In this document: in pieces, positions 28,579-59,160 of the stretch | Position numbering within the stretch: the first letter of the stretch is position 1 | Layout: every line of letters starts with the position of its first letter | Source of the DNA: Chitinophagales bacterium | Lineage (GTDB): Bacteria > Bacteroidota > Bacteroidia > Chitinophagales > UBA10324 | Assembly (NCBI GenBank): GCA_019694975.1 | Contig: JAIBAY010000006.1 | Span: 62,001 to 126,000 of the forward strand | Reading direction: 5' to 3' | DNA: 64,000 nucleotides | Notes under the pieces: generated by a model | Databases searched by the model: none | What the model was told of the DNA's origin: nothing | What the model saw: only the letters and a program-made list of their open reading frames with translations | Translations under genes and position numbers: made by a program

Positions 28579-28656
28579 ACATGTTCTTGCCGGTTTACGT
28601 ATATGACTGCTGCATAGCACCGGGCAAACATGGCATGCAATTCAATCATATCAGAT

Positions 28657-28781
28657 GCTATCGCAAAACAGGCAATCAAGGCTGTCATGCAGGATGTATT
28701 TCGGCAACTGTCAGTGAATTGGATAGATCCTGATCATGATCAATCAGGACAGGATGACTCCAGGTATTTTGCAACAGCTTC
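28657..28781 (+). repeat. Dispersed 125-bp repeat, copy A
   Basis: Ungapped alignment by hand to the reverse complement of 58908-59032 gives 100 identities in 125. The best-kept blocks are TATTTCGGCA and GGACAGGATGACTCC. The centre is a perfect 12-base palindrome, TGATCATGATCA (28731-28742); copy B has TGATCCGGATCA, a compensatory change. It sits between the convergent ends of the GNAT gene and the ABC exporter. The open frame through it is a by-product and is not called as a gene. Confidence 0.85.
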
Positions 28782-28801
28782 CGGTATTAGCCCGCAATAT
28801 C

Positions 28802-58892: not shown

Positions 58893-58907
58893 AAACGCAG
58901 ATAAATA

Positions 58908-59032
58908 GAAGCTATCTCAAAATACCCGGAGTCATCCTGTCCCGATTGATCCGGATCAGGTTCTCTTCCATTCATGCACAGATGCCGAAATAAATCCGGC
59001 ATGACCGCATTGATTACCGATTTGGAGATAAC
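58908..59032 (-). repeat. Dispersed 125-bp repeat, copy B
   Basis: On the minus strand it aligns without gaps to 28657-28781 (100 of 125 identical). The central palindrome is TGATCCGGATCA (58947-58958). It begins 15 bases after the OmpA-like gene. As in copy A, one strand translates to a '...FRHL...DPDQSGQDD' peptide; I regard this as the repeat itself and not a gene. Confidence 0.85.
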
Positions 59033-59160
59033 TTCTCGCATTTATGCAACAGGCAGTGACTGCATCACTGCCTGTTTTTTTTGCAGTGACCTGCTGTCAC
59101 AAGTTATTAAACAGTGCTTGCTGCGGCACGTTACAAGGCGGCATTGTCGCTGCTCCTGAA

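Follow-up and report, generated by a model that had tools for sequence, protein, structure and literature searches.

A decayed 130-bp repeat family in a Chitinophagales genome, probably mobilised by an IS5-type transposase, encloses a core resembling a pair of CGTC-type REPs

The window analysed here, a 64,000-nucleotide stretch of a Chitinophagales bacterium genome (assembly GCA_019694975.1, contig JAIBAY010000006.1, positions 62,001 to 126,000), holds two copies of a dispersed repeat. Positions 28657–28781 (forward strand) and 58908–59032 (reverse strand) align without gaps at exactly 100 of 125 positions, as the initial annotation had reported, and the runner-up ungapped matches of the copy 1 125-mer within the window reached only 53/125 (reverse strand) and 52/125 (forward strand); the resemblance of the two copies is real and above chance. 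The whole units exceed the 125 bp first described, spanning 28653–28782 (+; 130 bp; profile match of 140.8 bits over the whole model, 1–130) and 58907–59036 (−; 130 bp; 155.8 bits, again 1–130), with 103 of 130 positions identical. In copy 1, a left terminal inverted repeat (TIR) that differs from the consensus TIR by two changes (AGATGCTATCGCAAAA; 28653–28668, +) and a right TIR (28767–28782, −) enclose two REP-like hairpins, placed by alignment and fold: hairpin A (beginning GTCATGC; 28684–28708, +) and hairpin B, opposite to A in direction (28726–28758, −). Copy 2 is built in the same way on the other strand, with its left TIR at 59021–59036 (−), hairpin A at 58981–59005 (−), hairpin B, again opposite to A, at 58931–58963 (+) and a right TIR at 58907–58922 that, by pattern match, reads exactly AGAAGCTATCTCAAAA on the forward strand (G000:C6:120907–120922 in contig coordinates, G000 being the source genome). 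Copy 1 lies in convergent intergenic DNA between a GNAT gene (+) and an ABC-transporter gene (−), and copy 2 lies in intergenic DNA 15 bp past the stop of an OmpA-family gene and ahead of another forward-strand open reading frame (ORF).

Genome-wide, the repeat forms a family of at least 85 copies (profile search, E at most 1 × 10−9; 4.30 Mb, 14 contigs), and the finding of no more than two copies, which the initial annotation had named as speaking against its reading, did not materialise. A first genome search with copy 2 returned at least 40 long copies (the best 40 of 130 candidates scored). The profile, built from 31 aligned copies, gave 125 matches, of which 87 were carried into the analysis; two of less than 50 bits are excluded from the 85, as are reverse-strand reflections of listed copies and matches weaker than E = 6.6 × 10−4, many of which are REP clusters. 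Because 150 of 2,776 candidates were scored, 85 is a lower bound. The consensus unit of the 31 aligned copies is approximately 130 bp long, starting with AGAAGCTATCTCAAAA (a 16-bp TIR) and closing with its reverse complement; individual copies measure 130 bp (46 copies), 122 bp (13 copies) or 80–82 bp (four copies, each with both TIRs retained and one hairpin between them). Mean pairwise identities of 0.82 (130-bp class) and 0.83 (122-bp class) imply that the family is old. The element has no coding capacity and, at approximately 130 bp with 16-bp TIRs and at least 85 copies, it has the properties of a MITE (70–300 bp, TIRs of 15–30 bp, non-coding, multicopy). By a long-ORF proxy, 42 of the 85 copies have unidirectional neighbours, 21 convergent and 17 divergent, with four at edges and one within an ORF, and the median distance is 60 bp to gene 3′ ends versus 129 bp to 5′ ends; the 3′ intergenic placement noted initially holds for both window copies but not generally for the family. 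The same element was absent from 15 other genomes of the bacterial family at the search sensitivity used; across the order, only partial matches of 19–43 bp (E at most 0.01) were obtained, in 17 other genomes (two candidates scored per genome), and the exact TIR pair occurred in 2 of the 396 order genomes, the source genome and one other (G113).

CGTC REPs are abundant in alphaproteobacteria and present in several other phyla, and the interior of the element resembles them. Between the TIRs, the two hairpins point in opposite directions, hairpin A being GTCATGCCG[GA]ATTTATTTCGGCATC and hairpin B, in the 122-bp class, reading GTCATCCTGAACTTGTTTCAGGATC on the other strand. With stems that start with complementary AT and an HH arrangement, they look like CGTC-superfamily REP hairpins joined as an HH dimer with tags outward. 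Where CGTC REPs have CGTC (or TGTC, CCTC) as the tag preceding the stem, the element reads GGTC and AGTC, and clusters of the same genome read CGTC and AGTC. Hairpin A also occurs outside the elements, in tandem clusters that are partly CGTC-tagged (C7:108–110 kb and C7:118 kb, contig numbers here and below being those of the source genome unless another is named), with related hairpins at C7:8–10 kb, C2:22–24 kb, C12:73–75 kb, C12:88–89 kb and C1:431–432 kb. Because closely similar REPs thus also stand alone in the genome, one mobile family appears to be nested in another. As far as the sections consulted here describe them, the CGTC-tagged REP HH dimers of Di Nocera et al. (2013, PMC3733652) share with the element the inverted hairpins, the outward GTC tag, AT as the first stem bases and the heterodimeric make-up, whereas the element differs in having G or A instead of C before GTC, longer loops and an enclosure of TIRs. 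For the last of these, the nearest precedent in those sections is H. neapolitanus, all of whose CGTC-1 dimers lie within 41-bp palindromes (PMC3733652). Separately, REP pairs outside the MITE copies form tandem arrays with units of approximately 143–374 bp on C7, C2, C12 and C1 (L238–L242, L244 and L245).

The TIRs have a wider distribution than the element. We scanned a GTDB collection (84,980 species) for AGCTNTCTCAAAA followed, after a gap of 76–106, by the reverse complement of AGCTNTCTCAAAA, and recovered 28 stretches, against approximately 0.03 expected in random DNA by our estimate, from records labelled Bacteroidota, Acidobacteria, Deltaproteobacteria, Ignavibacteria, Bdellovibrionales and, in one case, Clostridiales. 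Across these stretches the TIR was constant and the core variable: GTCAT near the left TIR together with ATGAC near the right TIR (each within 20 bp) was found in 11 of the 28, all labelled Bacteroidota, Ignavibacteria or Clostridiales, and in none of the 11 stretches of Acidobacteria, Deltaproteobacteria or Bdellovibrionales. The TIR recurred in all 22 searchable carrier genomes, mostly well above a reversed-pattern control. The Bacteroidales genome CSMAG_801 has two stretches (L167:5411–5537 and L179:1440–1566) with the same TIR and spacing and a core without the GTCAT hairpin pair.

The same TIR also bounds IS5-type elements in three genomes of Acidobacteria and Deltaproteobacteria: in G412 (contig C38), a TIR pair 827 bp apart surrounds two overlapping ORFs of an IS5-family transposase, and in G410 (C1) and G401 (C178) NF033580 transposases have the TIR on both sides. 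The source genome itself contains two C-terminal fragments of IS5-type transposases (39–42% identity, E about 1 × 10−8), 4.6 kb apart, both of which stop one base before a one-mismatch TIR (L039, G000:C12:27500–34500; L208, L209); we take these as the probable fossil of the insertion sequence (IS) that moved the repeat. Judged by the match to autonomous elements in G412, G410 and G401 and to the fragments in the source genome, the element's TIR is, at the sequence level, that of IS5-family insertion sequences (NCBIfam NF033580, transpos_IS5_3 type). An intact IS5 of the TIR-matching type was not found in the source genome, and the NF033580 profile had no match there and matches in 7 of the 23 carrier genomes; beyond the TIR, we saw no sequence common to the MITE and the IS. 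One candidate autonomous copy, a TIR pair spanning 1,126 bp (C6:57469–58594; L034:1470–2595), was rejected as a MITE split by a second insertion sequence, whose broken ORFs bear a weak likeness to the IS4 family. Three lone TIR-like matches (C1:149088, C1:221208 and C2:281013) had no opposite partner with at most two mismatches in the surrounding stretches, and literature searches for the TIR sequence returned only papers unrelated by title.

Target duplications of 2–9 bp at offsets of −4 to 4 in the flanks of the copies did not exceed shuffles (best Z of 2.6 among several hundred tests). TA was counted separately because an invariant TA is invisible to the shuffle test; 17 of the 85 copies have it next to the GAAGC end on each side. 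Among the stretches from the TIR-pair scan, TA stands on both sides of 9 of the 11 small elements of Acidobacteria, Deltaproteobacteria and Bdellovibrionales and of none of the 17 others, and it lies beside both TIRs of the IS5 elements in G412 and G410, though not in G401. Two-ORF, TA-duplicating members of the IS5 family form the IS427 group. A weak flank preference is common to both ends of the family's copies (TWAYY before and RRTWA after the element). Insertion into hairpins was considered and rejected, the flanks not being complementary copy by copy.

Together, these observations make it probable that the repeat is a decayed MITE, mobilised by IS5, whose core is a CGTC-type REP pair. In favour of this reading, at least 85 copies have TIRs at both ends; the same TIR bounds IS5-type transposase genes in G412, G410 and G401, that is, in other phyla; transposase fragments abut a one-mismatch TIR in the source genome; the TIR pair recurs at similar spacing around other cores in the 28 stretches, far above the chance expectation; and the core is REP-like, with hairpin A also clustered outside the element and no coding capacity within it. 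Against it stand the missing intact IS5 of the TIR-matching type and missing NF033580 match in the source genome, the low share of copies with TA on both sides and no other visible target duplication, the limitation of the MITE–IS likeness to the TIR and the absence of the element, at the search sensitivity used, from 15 family relatives. Mechanistically, an IS5-family transposase supplied in trans would have moved the 130-bp unit into intergenic DNA throughout the genome; the IS itself would since have been reduced to the two fragments, with the MITE copies decaying (approximately 82% pairwise identity). We infer that this transposase moved the copies and that the core, an inverted pair of CGTC-type REPs (HH dimer), was captured rather than being an original part of the IS. 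Relative to MITEs derived from the IS5 family, the repeat shares the TIR sequence, small size, non-coding nature, intergenic dispersal and presence of IS fragments in the genome, but differs in having a REP hairpin pair in place of IS remnants at its core and in showing no TA duplication in most copies. IS5 is not named in the consulted portions of a 2024 MITE review (PMC10969869).

The C7:108–110 kb cluster of CGTC-type REP dimers contains the gene of a 112-residue GIY-YIG nuclease (Pfam PF01541, E = 2 × 10−15; G000:C7, about 109.0–109.4 kb, −; L238:2030–2365). Relatives were sought in a plasmid collection, giving 32 records (a Sinorhizobium query recovered mostly the same ones), and the loci of 17 were analysed, near-duplicates and two Neisseria gonorrhoeae records being left out; five of the 17 records were unannotated at the locus, and their gene start was assumed by analogy. 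Using a tagged-hairpin finder, REPs were detected within 250 bp of the GIY-YIG gene on both sides at 12 of the 17 loci and on at least one side at 15, compared with 0 and 8, respectively, of 54 control genes assessed with the same finder (from 9 of the 17 loci, genes near the GIY-YIG gene excluded). Because the 17 loci include orthologous sites (three Sphingobium, two Shinella), they amount to 14 independent sites, 9 of which had REPs on both sides by the finder. At the two loci that the finder missed (Spirosoma and Planktothrix), longer-loop GTCAT palindromes were visible by eye at the gene. The upstream REP was co-oriented with the GIY-YIG gene and ended 24 bp before it at five loci, a set that includes one orthologous pair and one locus whose gene start was assumed. 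REP sequences varied by lineage with the tag kept (CGTCATCCTCGGG.., CGTCATCCCCGCG.., CGTCACCCCGGG.., CGTCGCCCCGTG.. and CCTCATTCCTGTG..).

Some sites lack the gene. On a plasmid of Sphingobium TYG64, a single palindrome, CGTCACCCCGGGTCAAGCCCGGGGTGACG, replaces REP–gene–REP and equals the outer arms of both REPs fused; an altered form of the fused palindrome occurs in TYG74, and both REP and gene are missing from TYG72 (plasmids; L268, L269 and L270 against L264). The Azospirillum block, located between sufB and sufC, is missing from A. oryzae, A. ramasamyi and strain B510, with diverged intergenic DNA and an inexact junction; Sinorhizobium, with no clean alignment, was excluded from this comparison. 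The gene-less sites are compatible with a putative mobile REP–nuclease–REP unit that gives rise to versions without the gene. As deletion between the short direct repeats in the arms would also account for them, transposition is not proven. According to the sections consulted of the CGTC study, these repeats lack a dedicated transposase and are not associated with transposase genes, and none was found at tyrosine transposase genes (PMC3733652); the portions consulted of a 2025 REP survey mention neither nuclease nor transposase nor RAYT (PMC12306157), and our literature searches found no paper linking GIY-YIG genes with REPs. The arrangement recalls REPtrons and TIRtrons, in which RAYT genes lie between REPs or TIRs, in that GIY-YIG genes lie between outward CGTC REPs, but the protein here is a GIY-YIG nuclease and theirs is an HUH tyrosine transposase. 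On the basis of the association and the gene-less sites, CGTC REPs may have their missing partner in the GIY-YIG nuclease. We tentatively propose, as a lead that we hold to be somewhat less likely than not, that this small single-domain nuclease is a dedicated CGTC-REP partner, that solitary and dimeric REPs are its gene-less, non-autonomous derivatives, and that IS5-type MITEs in Bacteroidota later acquired such dimers, giving the repeat in the window.

A GIY-YIG gene within a cluster of the same REPs, and CGTC REPs flanking such genes elsewhere, would also suit an account in which the REP system itself moved the element, the inner REP pair being copied with the nuclease and the outer TIRs carried along. 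We regard this as unlikely: the boundaries of the repeated unit are the TIRs, not the REPs; in other phyla the same TIRs surround cores without such REPs; and the 82-bp copies have lost one hairpin and kept both TIRs.

Genes for REP-associated tyrosine transposases (RAYTs) sit between GTAG REPs, and the source genome has three RAYT genes, two of them identical and 4.8 kb apart (L041:1831–2355 and L041:6603–7127, both −; L040:1744–2295, +). The REP-associated transposase that the initial annotation had suggested looking for therefore exists, but none of the three genes adjoins the repeat, which was not found near any of the three loci, and they are flanked by inverted repeats of their own, different from the element and 43–52 bp long (in a search confined to stretches already extracted); the element consensus, moreover, has no GTAG tag. 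That the repeat is a REP or REPIN moved as the non-autonomous partner of one of these RAYTs would agree with their presence in the genome, with the lack of a visible target duplication, as expected of single-strand transposition, and with a Bacteroidetes subclass of RAYT proteins that, in the parts consulted of one account, reportedly has atypical flanking structures of which further copies exist in the genome (PMC6006769). Given RAYT loci without the repeat and with different inverted repeats, and 16-bp TIRs that the element has in common with a DDE transposase, we rejected RAYT as the mobiliser and consider such an origin very improbable. A 252-bp stretch was found to be 95% common to a C12 region (L039:4780–5031) and the downstream flank of the C3 RAYT gene (L040).

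Finally, we assessed the structure of the copies. The initial annotation had seen a compensatory change in a central 12-base palindrome, TGATCATGATCA in copy 1 (28731–28742) and TGATCCGGATCA in copy 2 (58947–58958), and the letters are as it gave them: the 12-mer is TGATC-NN-GATCA, with NN self-complementary in the window copies (AT and CG). The compensation was not borne out. In the copy alignment, the 12-mer is complete in 63 of the 85 copies and gapped in 22; a perfect palindrome occurs in three of the 63, two of which are the window's own, and CC occupies the middle in 37 of the 63. Of 68 cells, 4 had a standard middle pair, and the six pairs covaried no more than in shuffles (406 of 500 equal or exceed the observed value). 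The middle dinucleotide is unconstrained, and the 'compensatory' palindrome is chance; further copies break it, an outcome that the initial annotation had itself named as speaking against its reading. Taken as a whole, the consensus structure, made up of the TIR stem and both hairpins, had 85.6% of cells paired across the 85 copies versus 85.1% in shuffles, and its covariation score was 0.076 versus 0.069 (7 of 500 shuffles equal or exceed it), where kin sequences may outscore shuffles without any structure; both-side changes were no commoner than in versions of the structure slid by one to three columns. We read this as base pairs decaying without compensation, with no sign of an RNA structure under selection. 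Of the suggested mobile or RNA-structured element of REP/MITE type, the mobile part stands, MITE-like outside and REP-like inside, but the RNA part does not. A functional RNA or terminator whose structure is kept by selection, for which one could cite the strong fold of the consensus (−59 kcal/mol) and the proximity of copies to gene 3′ ends, is the least credible explanation, since pairs are lost without compensation, 17 of the 85 copies lie between divergent genes and no Rfam family matches the element.

MITEs and REPs are both established kinds of element. A MITE with a REP pair as its core, its TIR constant across phyla while the core changes, would amount to one mobile system carrying another. 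The GIY-YIG lead bears on what moves CGTC REPs, a question that it opens to experiment with a single small protein and hairpin oligonucleotides; if the lead is true, CGTC REPs would have a dedicated partner, and the repeat in the window would be two mobile systems nested in each other.
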